Positions 10,504 to 41,950 of a DNA stretch of 64,000 nucleotides are shown here, one piece after another. The translations under genes were made by a program, and so were the position numbers. The stretch's first letter is position 1. Every line of letters begins with the position of its first letter. Origin of the DNA: Halovivax cerinus (GTDB lineage: Archaea; Halobacteriota; Halobacteria; Halobacteriales; Natrialbaceae); assembly GCF_024498195.1 (NCBI RefSeq), contig NZ_CP101824.1, positions 2,294,001-2,358,000 on the forward strand, in the 5' to 3' direction. Below the pieces are notes generated by a model. The model saw only the letters and a program-made list of their open reading frames with translations, had not been told where the DNA came from and ran no database searches.

Positions 10504-11394
10504 TCACCACGCACTTCTGGTGACGACTTCCGCTCCCCTGCCGACGTTCGTCTGGTACGCTCTACTCTCGATACCCCGATCGGCGAACGCGTCGACCATA
10601 GCCGAGGCCACGGCTCGTCTCGTTCCCTCCCGGCAGACGGCGAGGACGGCAGGACCCGCCCCGCTCACCGTCACGCCCGTCGCTCCGGCGAGACGGGCCG
10701 CTTCGCGGACCTCGTCGTAGCCGTCGATCAACGCGGACCGCGTCGGCGTGACGACGGTGTCGGCCATCCCCTGGCCGACGAGTTCGGGATCGTCCCGTGC
10801 GATACCGGCCGTGAGTGTGGCGGCGGAGCCGACGGTGTCGACGAGGTCGTCGATCGAGAGGGTCGACGGGACGACGGCCCGCGCGTCTCTGGTCGAGACG
10901 ACGATCTCGGGCAGGCAGGCGACGAGCGAGAGCGAGGCCTCGAGCGTCGTGATCCCATCCGGCGTAACGATGGTGAACCCGCCGAGGATCGCGGGGGCGA
11001 CGTTGTCCGCGTGGGCGTCCCCGGAGACGACGGCTTCACCCTCCGCAGCGACGCGGACGAGTTCCTCCGGATCCGTCTGTAGCCCGTACAGTGTATCGAG
11101 CGCGACGGCGGCTCCGGCGGCGCTCGCGGCGGACGACCCCAGCCCAGAGGAGGGTCTGACCCCTTTGTCGATCGTAATCGACGCCGGTGCGTCGAGGGCG
11201 TCCGCGACGGCGCCGACGGTGTTGTCCCGTGGGTCCTCCGGGACGTACTCGCTGCCGACGCCTTCGACCGTGATCGTGGTCTCGTCGGCCGCCTCGACGT
11301 GGATCACGTCGGCCGGTCGACCGAGGGCGAGTCCGAATACGTCGTACCCGCTCCCGAGGTTCGCGCTCGTCGCCGGCGCCCGGACCGTGACCAT
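10504..11394 (-). CDS. thrB: Homoserine kinase
   Basis: A 296-residue GHMP-family kinase that phosphorylates homoserine in threonine synthesis. The N-terminus VRAPATSANLGSGYDVFGLAL and the ATP-binding loop PSSGLGSSAASAAGAA are diagnostic, and the C-terminal motif GVTVSGAGPAVLAVC is the third GHMP motif. The start is the ATG before VTVRAPATSANLG; a longer frame adds 17 residues (MSRAARYLFG...) that precede the strand that opens every family member. Neighbouring threonine genes are not in the window. Confidence 0.95.
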   Translation of the reverse strand: MVTVRAPATSANLGSGYDVFGLALGRPADVIHVEAADETTITVEGVGSEYVPEDPRDNTVGAVADALDAPASITIDKGVRPSSGLGSSAASAAGAAVALDTLYGLQTDPEELVRVAAEGEAVVSGDAHADNVAPAILGGFTIVTPDGITTLEASLSLVACLPEIVVSTRDARAVVPSTLSIDDLVDTVGSAATLTAGIARDDPELVGQGMADTVVTPTRSALIDGYDEVREAARLAGATGVTVSGAGPAVLAVCREGTRRAVASAMVDAFADRGIESRAYQTNVGRGAEVVTRSAW

Positions 11395-11631
11395 GTGAAG
11401 ACTCGTCGCAGGCGTCCCAAAAAGGTAGCGGGCGGCACGTGACACGTCACTGTCCGAACGCAGCCGCCGAACCGGTAATCAGACGCTCGACAGCCTCCCG
11501 CCACTGACGCCGGTGGCTTTCTCCTCGTATCGTCGTACCGAGCGCGTACCGCAGGTGATCCGGCACAGTACTTTGTCCGTCGCCGTCGTCGCCTATCGCG
11601 ACGGACGACGGCTGCGTCCGATCGAATCGAA

Positions 11632-12669
11632 ATGACTTCGCCGCTCGCACCGTCCAGGCGTTCGCCGACCGAGGTAGCGACGCGGTACGCAACGACCGAC
11701 CGATCGACCGATCGCGAGCTCGTCTCCGTCGTGATACCGACACACGACCGTCCCGCACGCCTCCGCCGGGCGATCCGTAGCGTCGCCGCTCAGACCTACG
11801 GACCGATCGAACTGATCGTCGTCGACGACGCCTCCTCGCCACCCGTGTCGGACGATATCGACCGCGTCGCCGCCCGCGTCGATCGGTTCGAACGCCACCG
11901 GTTCGTCACGAACCGGGGCGGCGCGGCCGCCAGAAACGCCGGTATCGAGGAGTCGTCCGGCGAATTCATCGCGTTCCTGGACGACGACGATCGCTGGGAT
12001 CCGGCCAAGCTGGAACGACAGGTTCCCCGGTTGCGCGCCGCACCCGACGACGTCGGCGTGGTCTACACGAGCGTGGTACAACTCGATTCAGACGGCGAGG
12101 TGAACGCCGTGACGGCCGCGACCGAATCGGGTGACCTCACCCACCGATTGCTTCGCCGGAACGTCGTCGGGACGGTTTCGTCAGTACTCCTTCGGTCGGA
12201 CGCCGCAGCCGCAGTCGGCGGGTTCGACGAGCGCTTTCCAAGCTGGCAAGACTGGGCGCTGTACCTCCGCCTCTCGAAGCGATACCGGTTTCTCGCGCTA
12301 GACGAACCGCTCGTCGTCCGTCACAATGCGGGGGCCGGACAGGTAAGCGGCGACTACGAGACCAAGCGTGACGAGACGGCGCCCCTGTTCAGACGAACCT
12401 TTCGACCGCTGGCTGCGCGCGAGGGCACCGACGATGCCAGGCTATTCGACGCCTTCGTCGAGTACCACCTGGGGCAGGCCGCGATCCGGGCGGAGTCCTA
12501 TTCGGCGGCGAGGCGGCACTTCGCCGCCGCGACCCGTCTCGCTCCCCGGTCGCTACTGTTTCCGTTGGCACTGGCGTCGGTCGCCTGCGGGCGGGCCACC
12601 TACGAACCGCTCGAACGGCTCGCGACCGTCCTCCCCCTTCGACGGGCGAAGCGCGCGCTCCAGCGCTGA
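11632..12669 (+). CDS. Family 2 glycosyltransferase
   Basis: A 345-residue GT-A fold glycosyltransferase. The start of the domain (VSVVIPTHDRPARLRRAIRSV, about residues 28-50) and the metal-binding acidic run AFLDDDDRWDPAKL (about 115-128) are clear, and the acceptor-side motif ERFPSWQDWALYLRL follows near residue 205. It transfers a sugar from a nucleotide donor onto a lipid or glycan; which sugar cannot be told. There is no transmembrane helix. It opens a group of glycan genes (two O-antigen ligase-like proteins, a deacetylase and an ATP-grasp ligase), suggesting a role in surface polysaccharide or glycoprotein decoration. Confidence 0.9.
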   Translation: MTSPLAPSRRSPTEVATRYATTDRSTDRELVSVVIPTHDRPARLRRAIRSVAAQTYGPIELIVVDDASSPPVSDDIDRVAARVDRFERHRFVTNRGGAAARNAGIEESSGEFIAFLDDDDRWDPAKLERQVPRLRAAPDDVGVVYTSVVQLDSDGEVNAVTAATESGDLTHRLLRRNVVGTVSSVLLRSDAAAAVGGFDERFPSWQDWALYLRLSKRYRFLALDEPLVVRHNAGAGQVSGDYETKRDETAPLFRRTFRPLAAREGTDDARLFDAFVEYHLGQAAIRAESYSAARRHFAAATRLAPRSLLFPLALASVACGRATYEPLERLATVLPLRRAKRALQR

Positions 12670-12710
12670 ACCGACCGTTCGACGGGTGCTGCGGTTCGCC
12701 GCCCACCGAG

Positions 12711-12846
12711 GGATGTCGACGTTCACCGCTCACCGACGAACGTCGCTGTTCACGACGTATTGACGGATGTCACCGTTCGCCGCTCACCGACGAATGTCGC
12801 TGTTCACGACGTATTGACGGATGTCGACGTTCACTGCTCACCGACG
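12711..12846. repeat. 54-bp tandem repeat, 2.5 copies
   Basis: Two full 54-bp copies (12711-12764 and 12765-12818) and a partial third (to about 12846) fill the spacer behind the glycosyltransferase gene. The copies differ at only a handful of positions. The period is divisible by three, but the plus-strand frame is open with no convincing start or family. The rest of this 300-base spacer shows no gene; an A/T-poor region with a short ggatttact just before the next gene may be its promoter. Confidence 0.85.
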
Positions 12847-12971
12847 GAGGTAGCGGCCTACCACCCACCGACGGCCGAGTACAACCGCCTCGTCTCGCGT
12901 ACACCCTGCCTACTCGCCCACCGAGGGGAAGGATTTACTCGTGGGCCGTGGTAGGGTGGCGGAATCGCTGC

Positions 12972-14306
12972 ATGGACTCGTTTCACGCTGGGCTCGGGCC
13001 GGGGAACGCGTCGCCGAGCGAGACGGCTACCGACCGCCGTCCGTTCCTGGTGATGCTGGTGGCGTTCTCGCTGTTTCCGTCGGTCTACGTCGGTGCCGAT
13101 CGCCTAGCAGTCGTCGAGTCGCTCTCCCCGGTCAATCCGTACTATGTCGTGATCGTCGGCGCGACCGTTGCCGCCGTTCTGGCGTTCTTCCGCGACGGGG
13201 ACCGGTACTCCCTCTCGCTGCTCGTCCTCCTCGCCGCGGTGGCCTTCGTTGCCTGGGCGACTTTGAGTCTCCAGTGGACCGTCGGTACCGGCGCGTACCC
13301 CCGATACAAGCTGGTTCGGATGATCGTCTTCGACACGCTCTTGCTCTGGTTCGGACTCGTCGTGGCACTGTCGCGCCGCCGGCTGGTCGCGTTCGGACTG
13401 GTGATGGGGCTCGTCGGTGCGTGGCTCGCCGCCGAGGCGGTGTACGCGGGGACGATCCTCGAGACGGACGCCTTCGCGACCGTCGGTTCGGAGTCGTACC
13501 TCACCCACGGCCGGGCGATCGGGTTCGCCGTCCCGCTCTGTCTGTACGTTTTCGGTTCGTCTGCTCGGTTCGCCGTTCGGTTGCTCGCCGGCGTCCTGGC
13601 CCTCGCCGGGATCGTCGGCGTGCTCGCGGCCGGCGGCCGTGGTCCGTTCGTCGCGCTAGTCGTCGCCCTCGCCGTATTCGTCGGGATCGAATTCAGTTCG
13701 GCCCTCTTCGATCGACGCACGGACCGTCGGGGCGTCTTCGCCGCGGGCGGGGCGACCGCCACCGTGACCGTCGCGGCCGTCCTCGTCGTACGTGCCGCCG
13801 GATGGACTCCGTGGACGATCCGGCGACTCGTGATCGTCTTCCGCGATTCGGCGACGGAGACGCGCCTGTTCATGCTCCGAGAGGCGTTCGGTTTCTGGCT
13901 CGAGCGCCCCCTCGTCGGCCACGGCATCGGGAGCTACGCGGTGCTGACCGAGACCGTCCACGAGTACCCACACAACGTCGTCGTCGAGACGCTCGCCGAG
14001 CTCGGTCTCGTCGGCTTCGCGCTCGCGTGTCTGGTCGTCGTTCCCCCCGTCGTCGTCACTGTCCTCGCCAGATTTCGAGGTGGCGACGCGCTGTACAGCG
14101 CTGCCCTCGCCGTCTTCGTCTTCGCCTTCGTCAACGCCTGCTTCTCGTTCGACCTCCAGTCGAATCGGCAACTCTTCTTCGCGATCGGCCTGCTGTCGAT
14201 CGCGTGGACGGACTCGATGCGGGAGCCCCACACGGGGGTAGCCGATGTGATGCAGGGCGTGACACACACGATGGCGGCGGCATCGAACCGACTACGCGAC
14301 CGGTGA
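12972..14306 (+). CDS. O-antigen ligase/polymerase-type membrane protein (copy 1)
   Basis: A 444-residue protein with about ten to twelve transmembrane helices, of the WaaL/Wzy (O-antigen ligase, PF04932-type) superfamily. The long outer loop and its signature EYPHNVVVETLAELGLVGFAL near residues 325-345 carry the conserved His and the LAELGLVG helix start. These proteins join or polymerise lipid-linked glycans on the outer face of the membrane. I chose the ATG before DSFHAGLG; a GTG 24 bases upstream is possible. A second, distinct member of the same superfamily lies at 16848-18203. A large antisense-like frame in another phase over this gene is an artefact of G+C bias. Confidence 0.85.
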   Translation: MDSFHAGLGPGNASPSETATDRRPFLVMLVAFSLFPSVYVGADRLAVVESLSPVNPYYVVIVGATVAAVLAFFRDGDRYSLSLLVLLAAVAFVAWATLSLQWTVGTGAYPRYKLVRMIVFDTLLLWFGLVVALSRRRLVAFGLVMGLVGAWLAAEAVYAGTILETDAFATVGSESYLTHGRAIGFAVPLCLYVFGSSARFAVRLLAGVLALAGIVGVLAAGGRGPFVALVVALAVFVGIEFSSALFDRRTDRRGVFAAGGATATVTVAAVLVVRAAGWTPWTIRRLVIVFRDSATETRLFMLREAFGFWLERPLVGHGIGSYAVLTETVHEYPHNVVVETLAELGLVGFALACLVVVPPVVVTVLARFRGGDALYSAALAVFVFAFVNACFSFDLQSNRQLFFAIGLLSIAWTDSMREPHTGVADVMQGVTHTMAAASNRLRDR

Positions 14307-14355
14307 CAGTGTCTCGGTGACGGCCCTGTGTTCGTCGGCTTCGATCGACTCGCCG

Positions 14356-14970
14356 TCACCAGGTGTCGATAGACCGGACGACCGCGAACCCCTCGGCGAA
14401 CGACCGATTCGCCTGGCGCCCACGCACCCGGGCGAGCCCCCTGATCGTCCCGTCGTTTATGTACGTCTTGTCCGTCTGGCTCTCGTGAACGCGGATGGCG
14501 TCGAGTTTCGCCTCGAGGTGTGACTCCGTCAGCGGAACCACGTGTCTCGGCGTGAACGTCGGTCGCGTCGAGTACGTTTCGTACGCGTAGACACTCCCCT
14601 CGCGTCTCGTCGCCGAGAGGGTCGCCCGCGCGCAATTTCGATGATCCTGATGGGTATCTTCTCGCGCGTGGACGTACACGCGATCCGCGTCGAGATCGGT
14701 CACGTGGCGTTCGATCGCATCGACGACCCGGCCGTCGTCGGTCAGTCCGGTGTCGGTGAACTCGAGAAACCGGACGTCTTCGACGCCGAGCGTTCGCGCC
14801 GACTCGACGGCTTCGTCGCGTCTCGCGTCTGCGGGATCCCGACAGCCGGCGGCACCGTCGGTGGCGATCAGGTGCGTCACGTCGTCTCCACGTTCGACGT
14901 GGCGAGCGATCGTTCCCCCGACCCCAATCTCGACGTCGTCGGGATGGGCCCCGATCGCGAGCACGCGCAT
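14356..14970 (-). CDS. PIG-L/LmbE family N-acetylglucosaminyl deacetylase
   Basis: A 204-residue zinc-dependent deacetylase of the PIG-L family. The N-terminus VLAIGAHPDDVEIGVGG holds the metal-binding HPDD motif (residues about 8-11), and the second metal ligand is in THQDHRNC. Relatives remove the acetyl group from GlcNAc-containing lipids or metabolites. In this neighbourhood a glycan or glycolipid substrate is the natural guess. The start is the ATG directly before RVLAIGAHPDD; the longer frame adds 17 unrelated residues. It is transcribed towards the O-antigen ligase-like gene and faces the HAD gene upstream on the same strand by 60 bases, so the two may be one operon. Confidence 0.92.
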   Translation of the reverse strand: MRVLAIGAHPDDVEIGVGGTIARHVERGDDVTHLIATDGAAGCRDPADARRDEAVESARTLGVEDVRFLEFTDTGLTDDGRVVDAIERHVTDLDADRVYVHAREDTHQDHRNCARATLSATRREGSVYAYETYSTRPTFTPRHVVPLTESHLEAKLDAIRVHESQTDKTYINDGTIRGLARVRGRQANRSFAEGFAVVRSIDTW

Positions 14971-15030
14971 ACCTGGCACGCGGTGGCTCGGACCGTAAAT
15001 TTGCCCGGTCGTTCGCCCCATAGTGCGTCG

Positions 15031-15705
15031 TTACTCGCGAGCCCGGGGAATCGCCCCGATCGATTCGAGCACCTCCGGGAGCCGGCGGAGTTCGTCGACG
15101 ACCGCCGTCGGCTCGTGCGTCGGCGAATTCACAGGGCGGGACCGATCCGTCCCGCGAATCCACACCGTCAGCGCGCCGAGTTCGGCTGGCCATCGTAGAT
15201 CCAGTTCCGGTCTGTCACCCACGAAGATACTCTCGTGGGGCTCGACGCCCAGTTCGTCGTAGAACACGGAGAACGCCTCGCGCTGACGTTTCGACAGGTC
15301 CCGATCGGGCGTGACGACGACCGCGTCCACGAACGTGTCGAGACCAAGCCGTTCGAGTTTCGAGCGACCCCGACGGCCGCCGGTGAGCACCCCAATCCGA
15401 CAGATTCGTCCGAGCGACTGCAGGACAGATTCGGCTCCCGGGGCTGGGTCAAGCGGAGCGGTCGACCCGTGATACGCTTCGATCAGCGCTGGCACGTACG
15501 CAGGGTCCAGGCCCTGTTCTCGACAGACGACATCGAACGTCCGGTCCGTAATTCCACGTTCGAAATACGCGTCAGCGAACGCGTCCCGAAGGTCGCGGCC
15601 CGTCTCCCGTGCGAGGTACGACGCCGCGGCGTCGAATCCCTGCCGGACGTACTGGCGATCGTCGAACAGCGTTCCGTCGAGATCGAACCCGATCGCCCGG
15701 CGCAT
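15031..15705 (-). CDS. HAD-superfamily hydrolase
   Basis: A 224-residue HAD phosphatase. Motif I is FDLDGTLFDD at the N-terminus (nucleophile Asp8, acid Asp10), motif II is the VLTGG strand end, the conserved lysine region follows in SKLERLGLDTFVD, and motif IV is FVGDRPELDLR. The helical cap between motifs I and II fits the C1 type. Substrates of this family are small phosphate esters; here a sugar phosphate is plausible because of the glycan genes around it. The start is the ATG before RRAIGFDLDG; the frame remains open upstream but without family sequence. It is probably co-transcribed with the deacetylase gene. Confidence 0.88.
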   Translation of the reverse strand: MRRAIGFDLDGTLFDDRQYVRQGFDAAASYLARETGRDLRDAFADAYFERGITDRTFDVVCREQGLDPAYVPALIEAYHGSTAPLDPAPGAESVLQSLGRICRIGVLTGGRRGRSKLERLGLDTFVDAVVVTPDRDLSKRQREAFSVFYDELGVEPHESIFVGDRPELDLRWPAELGALTVWIRGTDRSRPVNSPTHEPTAVVDELRRLPEVLESIGAIPRARE

Positions 15706-15891
15706 GGCGATGGACACCCCGACGAACCCGATACGGTTCCGGCTTGCACGTGCAGGACTGGTATAGACGATCGGATCCGATGCCCCCATCCGGAGTAGCT
15801 GCGGCCTACGGAACGCCATCGGAAACGACTGAATCCGACGGCGCGTCGACGGTCCACACGCTAATGGTCGTCGGCGTGGTGGCCCGTCACC

Positions 15892-16971
15892 ATGGCGAGG
15901 GTACTCGTGACCGGCGTCGGGGGTGTCGGCGGTGCATCGACGGCCCGCTGGTTTCGCGACCGGACCGGACACACGCCCGTCGGTGTGGATATGGATCCAC
16001 GGGCGAGGGGCTTCCTGGACCTGGCGGAGTGGACGACGGTCCCGCCCGCAGCCGACGACGACTGGCCCGGAACGGTCGCGTCGGTCGTCGCGCGTCGCGA
16101 CGTGGACGTCGTGGTTCCACTCGTCGACGAGGAACTGACCCGGCACTCCGACCTGCGAGCCGCCCTTCCGTCCGCGGTTCCGATCGTCGCACCGACCGTT
16201 TCGACCATCGAGCGGACGCTCGACAAGCGACGATTCGCCCGCTGGATCGACGGGACCGACCTCCCAGCGCCGCGGACCGTCTGCCCGACGAGCAGCACGG
16301 ATCTCTCGGCACTCGACGTCGCGTATCCCGCCGTGGTCAAGCCCCGCCTGGGCCACGGCAGCCGAGGCGTCTCCAGGGTCGCCTCACTCGACGACCTCAG
16401 GACGTCCCTCGCCTACCACGACTTCGATCCGGCAGACGTCGTGGTGCAGGAAGCCATCGAGGGTCGGGAGTTCACGACCAGTGTCGTCGCGACGACCGGA
16501 GGGGACTGCCTGTCGATCGTCACGAAGGAGGCCGTAGAGAAGGACGGCAACACCACCTGGGGCGTCACCCGGTCGAACGACGCCGTCGCAAGCGCGTGCC
16601 GCGACCTTCACGACCGTCTCGATCCCCGGGGACCGATCAACGTCCAGCAACTCGTCGACGCCCGAACAGGCGAGGCCTACATCGTCGAGGTCAACCCCCG
16701 ATTCTCGTCGACGGCCATACTCACGGCTCGCGCCGGCGTCGACGAACTGGACCTGCTCGTCCGGGACGCCCTCGACGAATCGATCTCACCACCACCGTCG
16801 CCACGTCCGGGCGTCCACCTCATCCGTACGAACCGGGATCACCTCGTTCAGGAGGAGTGTACAACGCCGTCCGAATCGACGGGGTGGGTCGCCAACTCCG
16901 ATGCGACCCCGGCCGATCTGGTCGACGGCGGACGACGAGCGCCGTCTTCGTCCGACGCCGATACTGCGTGA
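15892..16971 (+). CDS. ATP-grasp carboxylate-amine/thiol ligase-like protein
   Basis: A 359-residue ATP-grasp enzyme. A pre-ATP-grasp domain (about residues 1-100) starts with RVLVTGVGGVGGASTARWF; the ATP-grasp core has VVKPRLGHGSRGVSRV, the VVQEAIEGREFTTSVV strand and the metal site IVEVNPRFSSTA. It resembles the CarB-like ligases found in polysaccharide and modified-amino-acid gene groups; the product is unknown. The C-terminal 60 residues are low in structure. Its last 124 bases overlap the tail of the convergent membrane protein gene, which is unusual. It could attach an amino acid to a sugar or peptide. Confidence 0.85.
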   Translation: MARVLVTGVGGVGGASTARWFRDRTGHTPVGVDMDPRARGFLDLAEWTTVPPAADDDWPGTVASVVARRDVDVVVPLVDEELTRHSDLRAALPSAVPIVAPTVSTIERTLDKRRFARWIDGTDLPAPRTVCPTSSTDLSALDVAYPAVVKPRLGHGSRGVSRVASLDDLRTSLAYHDFDPADVVVQEAIEGREFTTSVVATTGGDCLSIVTKEAVEKDGNTTWGVTRSNDAVASACRDLHDRLDPRGPINVQQLVDARTGEAYIVEVNPRFSSTAILTARAGVDELDLLVRDALDESISPPPSPRPGVHLIRTNRDHLVQEECTTPSESTGWVANSDATPADLVDGGRRAPSSSDADTA

Positions 16972-18203
16972 GAACGGGGCTCCACCGACCCACCACCGGC
17001 CTGCGAACGGGTCACCCTCACGGGGTCGGTCTCGGCCGGCATCTCGTGTGCGGCGACGACCAGGACGAGCACGAGCCAGTTCATCGGATTGTTGTAGAGC
17101 ATCGCGACCGGGCCGAATACGGCAAAGACGCCGAGAACGGCGGCGGACGCGACCGTCGGGCCGGGGTTTCTGGCCACCGTCACCACCAGAACAGAAACGA
17201 CGAGGCCCGCGACGAGTAGCCCAATCGTGCCGAGCTCGACGGCGACACCGACGATCGCGCTGTGCGGATCGGCCCCCATCGGCGGTTCGGTGACTGCGCC
17301 GAACGCGCCGGCTCCGACGCCGAGTAGCGGCCGCTCGCGAAACGCCGCCAGGCCGACCGCCCAGATCGCGGTCCGGCCACCGGCAGTTCCGAGTTCGCTG
17401 TCCACGACCGGCAGCCGGTATCCCAGAAGTCCGATCGAGGCGACCGTCCGGACGACGGCGACGACCGACCCGACGACGAGTACGCCGACGATCGCCTGAC
17501 CCCTATCGAGTGGCACGTCCCACTCGCGTCGCGCCAGCCCGATCAGACCGACCACCACGAGCACGAGAGACCCGATCAGTCCCTGGCGGGATCCAGTCGC
17601 GAGCACCACGAACGGAACGACCGAAAGGTACGCGACGTTGACGGAGCCGAGGACGCCGGTGCGAAACCGGGTCGAGGAGCACAGCAGGCCGCCGGCGAAG
17701 GGGACGGCCACGAGGACCCACCGAGCGAGCTCGTTCGCGTTGATCCCCGCGAGCTCGCGTCGACTGTATTCTGTCCCCTGCTGCAGCAAGTCGACCAGCC
17801 CGGCACCGCCGACGACGAACGTGCCGAGGACGAGCGCCTGAGCGACGAGAGCCAGCCGGCGCCGCGTATCGAGCAGGTTCCAGGCCACGACGACGAGCGC
17901 GAGCGTGTACCCGAGCGTCGCGAGCCGCCGAAGGGTGCGCCCCCCGTCGATCGTCCACGCCAGACTCGACGCCGACAGCGCCACGAAGAGACCGAACGCG
18001 AGGTGAAACGGGTGGACCCGCCTGACCGACCGGGACGAGACGGTCAGCACCACCCAGGACCCGATCAGCCCGACGCCGAGCACCGACCCGACCGACACCC
18101 CGGGCGCCACCGTCAGCGCGTGTCGCCACGGCTGAACGAACACGAACCCGACGAGGAGCGCGAAGACGGGCGATTCACCGCGTCGACGCTCTTCGGCTGC
18201 CAT
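16848..18203 (-). CDS. O-antigen ligase/polymerase-type membrane protein (copy 2)
   Basis: A 451-residue polytopic membrane protein of the O-antigen ligase superfamily with about eleven transmembrane helices. Family features are ATGSRQGLIGSLV (about residues 208-220) and the late outer-loop signature DPHSAIVGVAVELGTIGLLV. It is diverged from the copy at 12972. The final 65 residues (from about ETDPVRVTRSQ) are hydrophilic and overlap the 3' end of the ATP-grasp gene by 124 bases, so one of the two tails may be an extension created by loss of an earlier stop. Two ligase-type proteins in one group may act as polymerase and ligase respectively; this is inference. Confidence 0.85.
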   Translation of the reverse strand: MAAEERRRGESPVFALLVGFVFVQPWRHALTVAPGVSVGSVLGVGLIGSWVVLTVSSRSVRRVHPFHLAFGLFVALSASSLAWTIDGGRTLRRLATLGYTLALVVVAWNLLDTRRRLALVAQALVLGTFVVGGAGLVDLLQQGTEYSRRELAGINANELARWVLVAVPFAGGLLCSSTRFRTGVLGSVNVAYLSVVPFVVLATGSRQGLIGSLVLVVVGLIGLARREWDVPLDRGQAIVGVLVVGSVVAVVRTVASIGLLGYRLPVVDSELGTAGGRTAIWAVGLAAFRERPLLGVGAGAFGAVTEPPMGADPHSAIVGVAVELGTIGLLVAGLVVSVLVVTVARNPGPTVASAAVLGVFAVFGPVAMLYNNPMNWLVLVLVVAAHEMPAETDPVRVTRSQAGGGSVEPRSHAVSASDEDGARRPPSTRSAGVASELATHPVDSDGVVHSS

Positions 18204-18473
18204 GCCGTGGACTCACCACCACCGGGGAGAAAAAAGCCCCCGACCGATCGACTCGTCCAGCGGAGTCGCTCGCGTGGACGAACCGTCTGCTGCCCAGCAC
18301 GACGTCGACCCTCGCGATCGGTGCCGGGACCGGCGTCGACGCAGGTCGCCTCGCCGCGAGTCGGTGTCTGTTTGTGCGGCCAGGACGCGACCAACTGCCG
18401 CGCCGCACCGTCGGACTGCGGCCGATATCGGCGCCGATCTGGCGGTTCCCTGTGGTGTCCGTCGACACAGATC
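18204..18473. other. Gene-free spacer upstream of the membrane protein gene
   Basis: Together with the 18-bp repeat array next to it this makes a 550-base stretch between genes transcribed in the same direction. It should hold the promoter of the O-antigen ligase-like gene. I see a short A-run (gagaaaaaagcccc near 18227) just upstream of that start, but no recognisable gene or RNA. Confidence 0.4.
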
Positions 18474-18653
18474 GGCGCCGTAGCAGACATCGGTACCGTC
18501 CCGGCCACCGGTACCGTCCCATACATCGGTACAATCCCGGCCTCCGGTACCGTCCCAGCCACCGGTACCGTCCCATACATCGGTACAATCCCAGCCTCCG
18601 GTACCGTCCCAGCCACCGGTACGGTCCTATACAGCGCCACCGTCCCAGCCATC
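18474..18653. repeat. 18-bp minisatellite, ten units, with 54-bp higher-order order
   Basis: Ten consecutive 18-bp units can be laid out from 18474 to 18653; the best ones start ggtaccgtccc. Units alternate in a three-step pattern (ending agccacc, atacatc, gcctcc), giving a 54-bp higher-order period. The first and last two units are degraded. Both strands stay open in one frame (GTVPATGTVPYI on plus, GTVPEAGIVPMY on minus), which follows automatically from a stop-free 18-bp unit. The array sits between an O-antigen ligase-like gene and the HerA-like gene. Confidence 0.92.
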
Positions 18654-18755
18654 GACTTCCGATACCAGGTATCGGCTACGTACCCGTCGAATCTGTATTG
18701 CAGTGACCCACTCGGTCGCTAGAACAACCCGGAACCGACTCGTGCCGAACCGCCG

Positions 18756-20321
18756 TCACATGGTTCGGTACTGATTCAACCCCAGCAGAATCGCGACCCC
18801 GAGGAGCACGTACAGCAAGACCACGGTGCCCATCGCGAGTCCAGTACCGACCCGTCGTTCGACCCGACCCGGCGATCCTCGTCGATAGGTTCCGAACGCC
18901 GTCTGTCGGACCCGAACGCACACGGCCGTGTATCGCCGTCGCAACGACCCGTAGAGGACGGCGTTCGCGTCCGCGAGGAGTCCGTACGCGTAGACGATGA
19001 ACTGACCGACCTCCCAGAGCGGATCGTACTCGTCCGGGTCGTCGAGGGCCGCCCGTCGACGCCGGGAGGCGGTCTCGCCCCCGGTGGAGTCGTCCGTCAC
19101 CGGTTCCGATCGATCGGGCGTCGCTCTCTGGGCTGAGTCGGTCGTCGTTCCGGCCTGCCCGGCGCCCTCGACAGTCCCCGTCGCCTGGACGGTCGCCGGA
19201 TCCACATCCAGCGGTTCGACCGTCCGCTCGGCCGCTTCGGATCCACTGTCGCGCTCCTCGTCGAACGTCTCCGATGCCTCCTGGAGCGACGGCTGTCGCG
19301 GCTCGATATCGACGTCGCTCAGGTCCCAGTTACTCGATCGGTCCTGCGGCGTCCCCTCGTCCCGCTCACGGTCGCCGGCCTCACCGTCGTCGGCACCCGA
19401 CCCGACGTCGGGATCGTCGGTCGGATCTGCGGACTCATCGGCCGTCTCGGAGCTCCCCTCCGGGTCGTCGGGTGCATCCGCCCCATCGTCAGTCACGTGA
19501 TCTTCGCGTGCGGACGGCGGGCCGTAGGCATCCTCGAGCGTGGGGGTCGACCCCTTGTCGATCGTCTTCTTCCGACGGAACTGCACGCGGGAGATCTTCT
19601 CGTCCCAGTCGGTCATGACGAGGGCTTCTCCGTCGTCCAGCGACTGGACGCTCTCCGAGGCGTCGCCGCCCAGGATTCGACCCGCTACCTTCGTGTCGTT
19701 CTCCCAGGTGAGGCGGTGCCAGACCAGCCAGTCACACTGGGTGATGTAATCCTTCGCGACCGCCGCCGGTCGCTGGGACATGGCGACGATGCCGAGTCCG
19801 CGCTTGCGACCGCGCTTTGCGATCCGGACGAGCATCTTGTGGACGTCGTCGCCACCGCCCCGTTCGGGGATGAACTCGTGGGCCTCCTCGACGAACAGCA
19901 AGAACGGCTTCTGGTGTTGCTTCTCCGCGACGAAGAGCTCCCTGACCACCGCGTGGATCACGTCCTCGGCCACTTCCTCGTCCATGTAGCCAGAGACGTC
20001 GAGGATGATCGGGACGTTCTCCTCCAGTGCGAGGTCGGCGATCAACGGCGCGTCCTCGGCCGTGATCTCGCGGTCGCACTGGTCGTCGCCACCGACCTGG
20101 AGCAGTTCGTAGCGCTCTTTGAGCGCCGCGTACTCGCCGTCCGTGTCGATTATCAGCAGTCCGAGCCCCCGATCGAGCAGTTCCTCGGCGACGACGCTCG
20201 CCGTGTTGGACTTGCCGCTGCCGGACTTCCCGGTGACGAACCCGCGGCCCGTCAGGACCTCGTTGATGGGCAGCGAGTAGCCCTTCTCCGAGACGGGGAA
20301 CCGCTCGATCGATTCGGCCAT
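18756..20321 (-). CDS. HerA-like (DUF87) ATPase with C-terminal membrane helix
   Basis: A 521-residue ATPase of the HerA/FtsK-like class. The Walker A motif is GKSGSGKSNTA (about residues 31-41), Walker B is FLLFVEEAHEF (about 140-150), followed by the sensor-like IVAMSQRPAAVAKDY. The core ends near residue 285. A disordered, very acidic, Ser/Thr/Asp-rich linker of about 140 residues follows, then a C-terminal module ending in one transmembrane helix (MGTVVLLYVLLGVAILLGL). HerA proteins move DNA; the helix suggests this one is tethered to the membrane. A TATA-like ccatatatg 30 bases before the start indicates a leaderless transcript. Confidence 0.85.
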   Translation of the reverse strand: MAESIERFPVSEKGYSLPINEVLTGRGFVTGKSGSGKSNTASVVAEELLDRGLGLLIIDTDGEYAALKERYELLQVGGDDQCDREITAEDAPLIADLALEENVPIILDVSGYMDEEVAEDVIHAVVRELFVAEKQHQKPFLLFVEEAHEFIPERGGGDDVHKMLVRIAKRGRKRGLGIVAMSQRPAAVAKDYITQCDWLVWHRLTWENDTKVAGRILGGDASESVQSLDDGEALVMTDWDEKISRVQFRRKKTIDKGSTPTLEDAYGPPSAREDHVTDDGADAPDDPEGSSETADESADPTDDPDVGSGADDGEAGDRERDEGTPQDRSSNWDLSDVDIEPRQPSLQEASETFDEERDSGSEAAERTVEPLDVDPATVQATGTVEGAGQAGTTTDSAQRATPDRSEPVTDDSTGGETASRRRRAALDDPDEYDPLWEVGQFIVYAYGLLADANAVLYGSLRRRYTAVCVRVRQTAFGTYRRGSPGRVERRVGTGLAMGTVVLLYVLLGVAILLGLNQYRTM

Positions 20322-20444: not shown

Positions 20445-20927
20445 ATGAACACGGATCGCATCGCCGACCTCCTGGCTAGCCGGGCCGTTCTCACCGTCGC
20501 GTCGTCGACGGTCCTCCTCACGCTCGCGTTCGTCGGCGTCGCCGTCGTCGTCGAGGGGCAGATCGTCGGCGACGTCTCGACCCGTCTCCCGGTATACGTC
20601 CTCGTCTTCGCCCTCGGCTTCATCGTCTCCCTGTTGAAACTCGACAACCGCAACCGCGACGGTATGCAGATCCTCATCGCCACCGCAGGGATCGGTACCG
20701 TCGCCGCCCTGCTGGTCGGTCTCGCCACCGAAGGCGCCGTCTACCTCGTCGATAGCCCCGAAGCGCTCCTCCACCGCGGCCTGATCGTCGTCTTCCTCGC
20801 CGCCGGCATCATCTGCACCGGTCTCGGTATCTGGGGCGTCCGCCACTGGCGCGAGTTCGTCGGCCCCAACGCCTACACTCGATCGAAACCCGCCAACGAC
20901 GGCGGGATGAACGACGCGTACAAGTGA
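20445..20927 (+). CDS. Small four-helix membrane protein, unknown function
   Basis: A 160-residue protein with four predicted transmembrane helices (about residues 15-37, 47-62, 74-92 and 107-128) and a short hydrophilic C-terminus ending SKPANDGGMNDAYK. I do not recognise the family. It is transcribed away from the HerA-like gene; the spacer of 123 bases holds promoters for both. Codon use is like the neighbouring genes, so it is very likely real. Confidence 0.75.
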   Translation: MNTDRIADLLASRAVLTVASSTVLLTLAFVGVAVVVEGQIVGDVSTRLPVYVLVFALGFIVSLLKLDNRNRDGMQILIATAGIGTVAALLVGLATEGAVYLVDSPEALLHRGLIVVFLAAGIICTGLGIWGVRHWREFVGPNAYTRSKPANDGGMNDAYK

Positions 20928-21001: not shown

Positions 21002-21265
21002 CGCGGTTCTCGCTCGCTACGCTTGTTCCGAACCGCGCTACTCCTTCACGGCTCACTGCGTTCGCCGTTCCGGTACGAGGGTTTCGCTCCCGTTGGTCGC
21101 TCAACCCTCGCTACTCACGGTTCGCTCCGCTCACCGTTCGTCAAATCGCGGTTCTCGCTCGCTACGCTTGTTCCGAACCGCGCTACTCCTTCACGGCTCA
21201 CTGCGTTCGCTGTTCCGGTACGAGGGTTTCGCTCCCGTTGGTCGCTCAACCCTCGCTACTCGCGG
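21002..21265. repeat. 119-bp direct repeat, two copies
   Basis: Two nearly identical 119-bp copies (21002-21120 and 21147-21265, offset 145) occupy the gene-free spacer downstream of the membrane protein gene. They contain many shorter words such as ctcgctacgc and tcactgcgttcgc. The same kind of word (reverse complement gaacggagtga) occurs next to the tRNA gene at 25.1-25.4 kb, so this belongs to a dispersed low-complexity family. Nothing else is seen in the spacer 20928-21310. Confidence 0.9.
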
Positions 21266-21310
21266 CTTCGCCGCTCGTCTATCCGAGGCTCTCACTACGT
21301 TCGACCCTCG

Positions 21311-41691: not shown

Positions 41692-41790
41692 CGGCGTCGC
41701 CTCGCGTGCGATCCGGTCCGCGTTCTCGCTGCCGGGTGTGGGGCGGATTTCGGCGGGTGTGGGCCGGCCTCCAGCGGATGTGAACGGCTC

Positions 41791-41950
41791 CGACGTGTGC
41801 ACTGGTTCACGCCTGTCTCCGACGTCTACACCGGCTCACGCCTGTCTCCGACGTGTGCACTGGTTCACGCCTGTCCCCGACGTGTGCACTGGTTCACGCC
41901 TTTCCCCGACGCAGGCACCGGTCACGCCTGTACCCGACGTGTGCGCTCGT
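41791..41950. repeat. 29-bp tandem repeat, five full copies plus a partial one
   Basis: Units of 29 bp beginning cgacgtgtgcactggttcacgc repeat at 41791, 41820, 41849, 41878 and 41907 (the fifth is one base short), with a broken sixth copy. Copies 1, 3 and 4 differ at one to three positions. Because 29 is not divisible by three the reading frame rotates through all phases, so the array is not protein-coding. It fills the spacer 41692-42011; nothing else is seen there but a short cacttttgatacg just before the reductase gene, a possible promoter. Confidence 0.92.

Follow-up and report, generated by a model that had tools for sequence, protein, structure and literature searches.

Proteins of the Wzy_C family (PF04932), in the WaaL-PglL superfamily, have about 10-12 membrane segments, and the family includes polymerases as well as ligases. 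To our knowledge, no archaeal enzyme is known to attach O-linked glycans of the kind carried by the S-layer of Haloarcula hispanica. That S-layer also bears an O-linked disaccharide, and the biosynthetic pathway of the acidic exopolysaccharide (EPS) of the same organism is called unknown, according to the sections of the paper available to us (PMC9943897). The literature that we searched contained nothing on archaeal Wzy or WaaL proteins or on a trio of PIG-L, HAD and ATP-grasp genes, and the terms "O-antigen ligase", "haloarchaea" and "AglB" never occurred together in one paper; literature beyond that search may differ. We describe here a group of six genes, called island 1, in a stretch of 64,000 nucleotides of the Halovivax cerinus chromosome (positions 2,294,001 to 2,358,000 of NZ_CP101824.1; hereafter the window), which we read, with a probability of about 0.6, as part of a haloarchaeal surface-glycan locus of the Wzx/Wzy type. 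The best reading of its product is a lipid-linked, polymerised and amide-modified surface glycan made beside N-glycosylation.

The genome (G000; a single contig of 3.90 Mb, 99.91% complete) was compared with four congeners, G001 to G004, and counts given below over 61 genomes include G000 itself. Genes of the relatives were called with a codon-score script, gene families were assigned by Pfam and NCBIfam scans, and the backbone and islands were mapped by blastn synteny against G002 and G003.

Gene content and the second half of the cluster

The initial annotation had placed a GT2 transferase, two Wzy_C proteins, a PIG-L deacetylase, a HAD phosphatase and an ATP-grasp ligase within 6.6 kb, and the Pfam scan confirmed all six at these places (Table 1); in the NCBIfam scan all matches of the six genes, including those to HAD-superfamily models, stayed below the cut-offs. 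All six frames are open, with 51-68% identity to the G001 orthologues, and the motifs that we take to be active-site signatures are intact in the PIG-L and HAD proteins (Table 1), in the ATP-grasp protein (VKPR and VEVNPR) and in GT2 (DDDD). Because the strands run + + - - + -, the six genes do not form one operon: Wzy2 is convergent to Wzy1, the HAD and ATP-grasp genes are divergent, and the ATP-grasp and Wzy2 genes overlap tail to tail at their 3' ends by 124 bp.

Relatives of Wzy1 occur in 8 of the 61 genomes, and orthologues of Wzy2 in three only. A GT2 gene (E<=1e-20) immediately precedes Wzy1 on its strand in six of the eight (G000, G001, G004, G030, G033 and G035); a weaker match in G005 brings the count to seven, and G008 has none there. 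Convergent Wzy_C pairs, counted when the two genes are <=4 kb apart, were found in 6 of the 13 genomes that have at least two Wzy_C matches among the 61 examined (G000, G001, G004, G033, G035 and G006, the last with one partner below the cut-off). In G033 and G035, which belong to other genera, the second protein scores under 15 bits, the reporting score, with the Wzy1 or Wzy2 profile; the architecture is therefore common, and the second protein need not be of the same subfamily.

Island 1 is strain-variable, a clean case of presence or absence. G002 and G003, which are without Wzy1 and Wzy2, have a backbone collinear with that of G000 from about 2295.9 to 2484.2 kb, and there only about 80 bp separate the homoserine kinase-like gene on the left (which we presume to be thrB) from the HerA-like gene on the right. 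A second island (island 2; G000 2435711-2462254, 26.5 kb) lies about 123 kb from island 1, and its site holds about 100 bp in G002 and 1.5 kb in G003. In G001 and G004, glycan genes of both island types are contiguous. The order in G001 is Wzy2, flippase, FkbM methyltransferase and GT4, with GT4 again further on and a partial PF02397-like match (tblastn) at the far end; that in G004 is Wzy2, GT4, a kinase-like gene, an unassigned gene, a methyltransferase-like gene, GT4 and PF02397. The G000 relatives of those genes lie in the opposite orientation at 2451.6-2462.2 kb, inside island 2, with identities of 72% for the flippase, 62% for GT4 and 51% for PF02397. Among the 17 of 19 open reading frames scanned, island 2 has a PF02397 initiating transferase (Pfam, 7.9e-56), Wzx flippase families (PF01943/PF13440) in two proteins, further GT4 enzymes, two sulfatases, an epimerase/dehydratase and a pectate-lyase-like protein. 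The block in the window is one half of a larger surface-glycan cluster, the other half of which lies far off on the same chromosome. We favour a polymerised glycan because the locus to which the Wzy_C genes belong elsewhere supplies a PF02397 transferase, Wzx flippases and GT4 enzymes, and because three genera share GT2-Wzy1 together with a Wzy_C gene convergent to it.

The HerA-like gene adjoins, in G001 and G004, sequence that in G000 comes after the flippase, which fits an inversion with one end between Wzy2 and the HerA-like gene and the other between the flippase and its next gene. Two histories of three events each may account for this: two gains and one inversion that united the islands in G001 and G004, or a single gain of the complete cluster and two inversions, the second of which stranded island 1 in G000. 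Either history requires a further rearrangement near tRNA-Leu in G001. Inversion by way of the tandem repeats was rejected, as no stretch longer than 15 bp is shared between the breakpoint in the window and the other breakpoint, and the idea that the inversion is derived in G000 was dropped because G002 and G003 have the same backbone order as G000.

Table 1. Features of island 1 and its flanks in window coordinates
Feature	Position	Strand	Basis and remarks
Glycan island 1	11433..18763 (G000 2305433-2312763), 7.3 kb		blastn synteny
GT2 glycosyltransferase	11632..12669	+	PF00535 1.1e-29; orthologues 62-63% in G001, G004
Wzy1, polytopic Wzy_C protein with HNVVVETLAELGLVG; candidate polymerase	12948..14306	+	PF04932 50.1 bits
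PIG-L family de-N-acetylase	14356..15021 (codon-model start 14970)	-	PF02585 3.5e-27; HPDD, HQDH
HAD-family phosphatase	15031..~15705, start by codon score	-	PF00702 8.4e-16; DLDGT
ATP-grasp carboxylate-amine ligase	15892..16971	+	PF02655 4.8e-15
Wzy2, second Wzy_C protein with HSAIVGVAVELGTIG; candidate ligase / en bloc transferase	16848..18203	-	PF04932 59.8 bits
Left backbone flank, homoserine kinase-like	10504..11445	-	collinear in G002, G003
Right backbone flank, HerA/DUF87 ATPase	18756..20321	-	PF01935; collinear in G002, G003
Tandem repeat array, ~54-bp unit, between GT2 and Wzy1	12680..12874		
Tandem repeat array, 18/36/54-bp units, between Wzy2 and HerA-like gene	18484..18651		

The PIG-L/HAD/ATP-grasp module

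The gene group is composite, consisting of a GT2-Wzy1-Wzy_C core and a PIG-L/HAD/ATP-grasp module, and the view that the six genes are inherited together as one unit had to be given up: G004 keeps GT2, Wzy1 and Wzy2 without the trio, Wzy1 and Wzy2 being convergent there with 59 bp between their stops, and six haloarchaeal genomes have the trio elsewhere. Close relatives of the ATP-grasp protein were found in ten genomes, namely G000, G001 and eight from a search of 392 genomes (E<=1e-68, followed by a gap to 1e-26), in which two candidates were scored per genome and a missing match does not mean absence. HAD and PIG-L genes lie beside the ATP-grasp gene in eight of the ten (G000, G001, G092, G285, G313, G309, G384 and G371); G360 and G094 are the exceptions, and NeuB relatives lie 3.3 and 1.4 kb off there. 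The HAD and ATP-grasp genes are divergent in seven of the eight trio genomes and tandem in locus L117. Pairwise identities of the trio genes correlate with one another (r 0.94-0.98 without locus L115, 0.63-0.97 with it); the PIG-L of L115 is different and bacterial-like, with 43% identity to that of L068 and 28-34% to the other PIG-Ls. Three further haloarchaeal families carry the trio within clusters of glycan genes, and its loci in other genomes hold flippases, glycosyltransferases, heparinase II/III-like and UDP-sugar dehydrogenase proteins; no relative of Wzy1 or Wzy2 was found at the trio loci of the six other haloarchaeal genomes. At the bacterial loci, an inositol-monophosphatase-like gene lies near the ATP-grasp gene, <=1.7 kb downstream, in 22 of 29, and in three of these loci (L060, L061 and L068) NeuB and PIG-L also join the pair.

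An AlphaFold2 model of the ATP-grasp protein (predicted local distance difference test, pLDDT, 85.2; predicted template modelling score 0.83; residues 323-359 with pLDDT under 50) matched the PDB chain 2pn1 best (VIA Z 31.3, root-mean-square deviation 2.1, 282 residues aligned) and also resembles biotin carboxylases, PurK and PylC. The predicted fold and the Mg/ATP motifs fix the enzyme class but do not point to a substrate.

As a rival explanation, the trio may be cargo in its own right that makes some other metabolite, for example a derivative of nonulosonic acid, and may lie between Wzy1 and Wzy2 by chance. The absence of the trio between the same genes in G004 speaks for this explanation, as do the ATP-grasp relatives near NeuB in the bacterial loci L060, L061 and L068 and in the archaeal loci L121, L122 and L125; however, the examined trio loci elsewhere lie amid glycan genes, and a tblastn search of 231 kb of G000 gave no match to NeuB; we consider the explanation possible though doubtful. 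At L121, L122 and L125, which are haloarchaeal, the NeuB relatives suggest the presence of nonulosonic-acid genes.

The two Wzy_C proteins and AglB

The two Wzy_C proteins are strongly diverged, with 25-30% identity, in agreement with their earlier description as two diverged ligase/polymerase-like proteins, and both score above the PF04932 curated cut-off of 31.7 bits (Table 1). A simple hydropathy scan gave 10 membrane segments in Wzy1 and 7 in Wzy2. Both carry H[NSQ]x9Gxx[GTY], which we take to be a family motif, and three residues are invariant in six proteins (the two Wzy proteins and four from congeners): the Arg of GGRGP/GSRQG, the Arg of ETR/GGR and the His of PH[NS]. These were matched by eye, from an alignment without the WaaL sequence, to R215, R288 and H338, the residues of note in Escherichia coli WaaL according to the available part of the source (PMC3643930). 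The sole NCBIfam match of either protein was a weak one to TfpM (27.1 and 21.7 bits against a cut-off of 600), the PglL_A model (PF15864) gave no match at E<=0.01 in either, and a PDB profile search with Wzy2 returned nothing at E<=1. AlphaFold2 models of the two proteins had a pLDDT of 38 and were therefore not used for fold search.

Instead of a polymerase and a ligase, both proteins may be en bloc transferases, acting as O-ligases of protein or lipid, whose acceptors differ. The shared motif and the R/R/H residues in both proteins would fit this explanation, as would the weak match to TfpM, an O-linking transferase, and the fact that island 2 has a polymerase-like protein of its own (PF01901, weak, 23.9 bits against a cut-off of 24.2). 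The missing PglL_A-type match and the polymerases that the family also contains count on the other side, and we consider the explanation unlikely.

The initial annotation remarked that no AglB appears, which holds for the window and fails for the genome, where an intact AglB frame lies at G000:C1:3685909-3688512. This sole AglB match, at 3.69 Mb, is about 1.37 Mb from the island and outside the gene group. A PF02516 search of G000 and 60 relatives gave a match in all of the 50 good-quality genomes except G000; the apparent loss was a false negative, as a search with AglB from G001 turned up an open frame of this family, which gives AglB_core and AglB_L1 matches. The G000 protein escapes PF02516, whereas the four congener AglBs match it at 1e-19 to 1e-23. 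Since the genome has AglB, its absence cannot be used as an argument for a distinct glycan; the contrast with N-glycosylation holds as a proposal, and a surface glycan that is polymerised, modified and separate from the AglB pathway is retained as the best reading on other grounds.

The G000 AglB (G000:C1:3685889-3688512; L056 7889-10513, - strand) has WWDFGH where 24 of 24 others have WWDYGH, and it is the shortest of 25 sequences, with 874 residues against 926-1022. A degenerating AglB was considered and rejected: of 164 columns that are invariant otherwise, G000 departs in 7, as do G020 and G022, and G029 departs in 11, which leaves no excess in G000. What sets the G000 protein apart is confined to the WWDFG motif and a shorter C-terminal part.

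That the locus builds a lipid-linked glycan for N-glycosylation by AglB is very unlikely: the AglB frame is intact, but it lies far from the island, G002 and G003 have AglB without island 1, and a WaaL-type ligase would be redundant. We give equally little credence to the island being a decaying remnant, no longer working, for although its partner genes lie separately in G000 and tandem repeats lie between its genes, it has six open frames with intact motifs and with G001 orthologues at 51-68% identity.

Other features of the neighbourhood may be mentioned here. The two tandem repeat arrays beside the Wzy genes, with periods of about 54 bp, have no reported counterpart at these places in G001 or G004. 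The interval between pdxS and thrB is empty of genes in the window; it is occupied in G001 by an HTTM-domain protein and in G004 by a predicted protein of 2124 residues that contains long repeats (L043 551-6925, - strand). PADLOC matched only the flanking HerA-like gene. The window also has a 145-bp direct repeat of about two copies, 97% alike, at 21002-21271, between the gene at 20445 and a maeB-like gene, and a tandem repeat with a 29-bp unit and 5.4 copies at 41790-41944. Another sugar region (G000:C1:1422500-1442499; L052) holds dehydrogenase-, GT2-, sulfatase- and epimerase-like frames, identified by eye, and a long stretch left empty by the codon model.

Proposed pathway and comparison with described systems

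For the surface-glycan locus that we favour, the PF02397 transferase of island 2 would start the glycan on lipid phosphate, the GT4 enzymes and GT2 would extend it, and the Wzx flippase of island 2 would turn it outward. Wzy1 would then join the repeat units, and the finished chain would be passed by Wzy2 to the final acceptor, which may be the S-layer or another protein, or a lipid; for this division of labour between the two proteins we would give perhaps even odds. PIG-L would free the amine on an N-acetylated sugar, the ATP-grasp enzyme would attach a carboxylic or amino acid to the freed amine at the expense of ATP, and the HAD enzyme would strip phosphate from a precursor, the whole locus working alongside AglB N-glycosylation. 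We infer these enzymatic roles from family membership, and the Wzy assignments, the substrates and the acceptor are likewise putative.

Several points weigh against this reading. The trio is missing in G004, where neither ATP-grasp nor PIG-L has a match at E<=1e-20; as an optional module distinct from the core, it might work for a different product. Wzy_C sequences cannot tell a polymerase from a ligase, and the glycan product, the lipid carrier and the acceptor are so far predicted ones. No Wzz-like chain-length protein was found among the six island 1 genes and 17 of the 19 island 2 frames. Island 2, with its own polymerase-like protein and a second flippase, may not need Wzy1, and the islands lie apart in G000, so their co-expression is not proved.

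A wider proposal would be that Wzy2, and likewise the second Wzy_C proteins that accompany Wzy1-type genes in other haloarchaea, are archaeal en bloc transferases of the WaaL/PglL kind, which act beside AglB and attach O-linked or lipid-linked surface glycans, with Wzy1 as the partner polymerase and with PIG-L, ATP-grasp and HAD adding an amide-linked acid; taken as a whole it is speculative and quite improbable. The core present in three genera provides defined candidates for archaeal polymerisation and en bloc transfer, and with AglB present in the same species mutation could separate the two glycan routes. The amide modification of surface sugars proposed for the module would be a small pathway open to test, and the bacterial relatives of the module use another phosphatase. 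Congeners with and without each island allow a straightforward comparison of surface glycans.

Among described systems, the Shewanella sfmABCDE flagellin-modification operon likewise has NeuB-like and ATP-grasp genes in a sugar-modification operon; the available part of that paper mentions no PIG-L or Wzy, and the ATP-grasp proteins are likened by description only (PMC3765264). The bacterial NeuB-associated groups L060, L061 and L068 resemble the module in having a related ATP-grasp gene and PIG-L beside a phosphatase, but the phosphatase there is of PF00459 (inositol-phosphatase-like) instead of HAD, and NeuB was not found nearby here. With the O-linking oligosaccharyltransferases PglL and TfpM (PF04932), the two Wzy proteins share the Wzy_C domain with the R/R/H residues; they differ in the missing PglL_A match, in the low TfpM scores and in that no target protein was recognised beside the genes. 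The acidic EPS clusters of Haloarcula hispanica are the haloarchaeal parallel, a surface polysaccharide made beside AglB N-glycosylation, to which the available sections of the paper assign no Wzy or Wzx role (PMC9943897). The bacterial Wzx/Wzy-dependent capsule, EPS and O-antigen loci with a WaaL-type ligase share the PF02397 initiator, glycosyltransferases, Wzx and Wzy_C as well as island-like gain and loss; here, in contrast, Wzz was not found among the scanned genes, the host is an archaeon, the two Wzy_C genes are convergent and the cluster is split into two islands. The system is of a known kind, and its archaeal variant is what is new.

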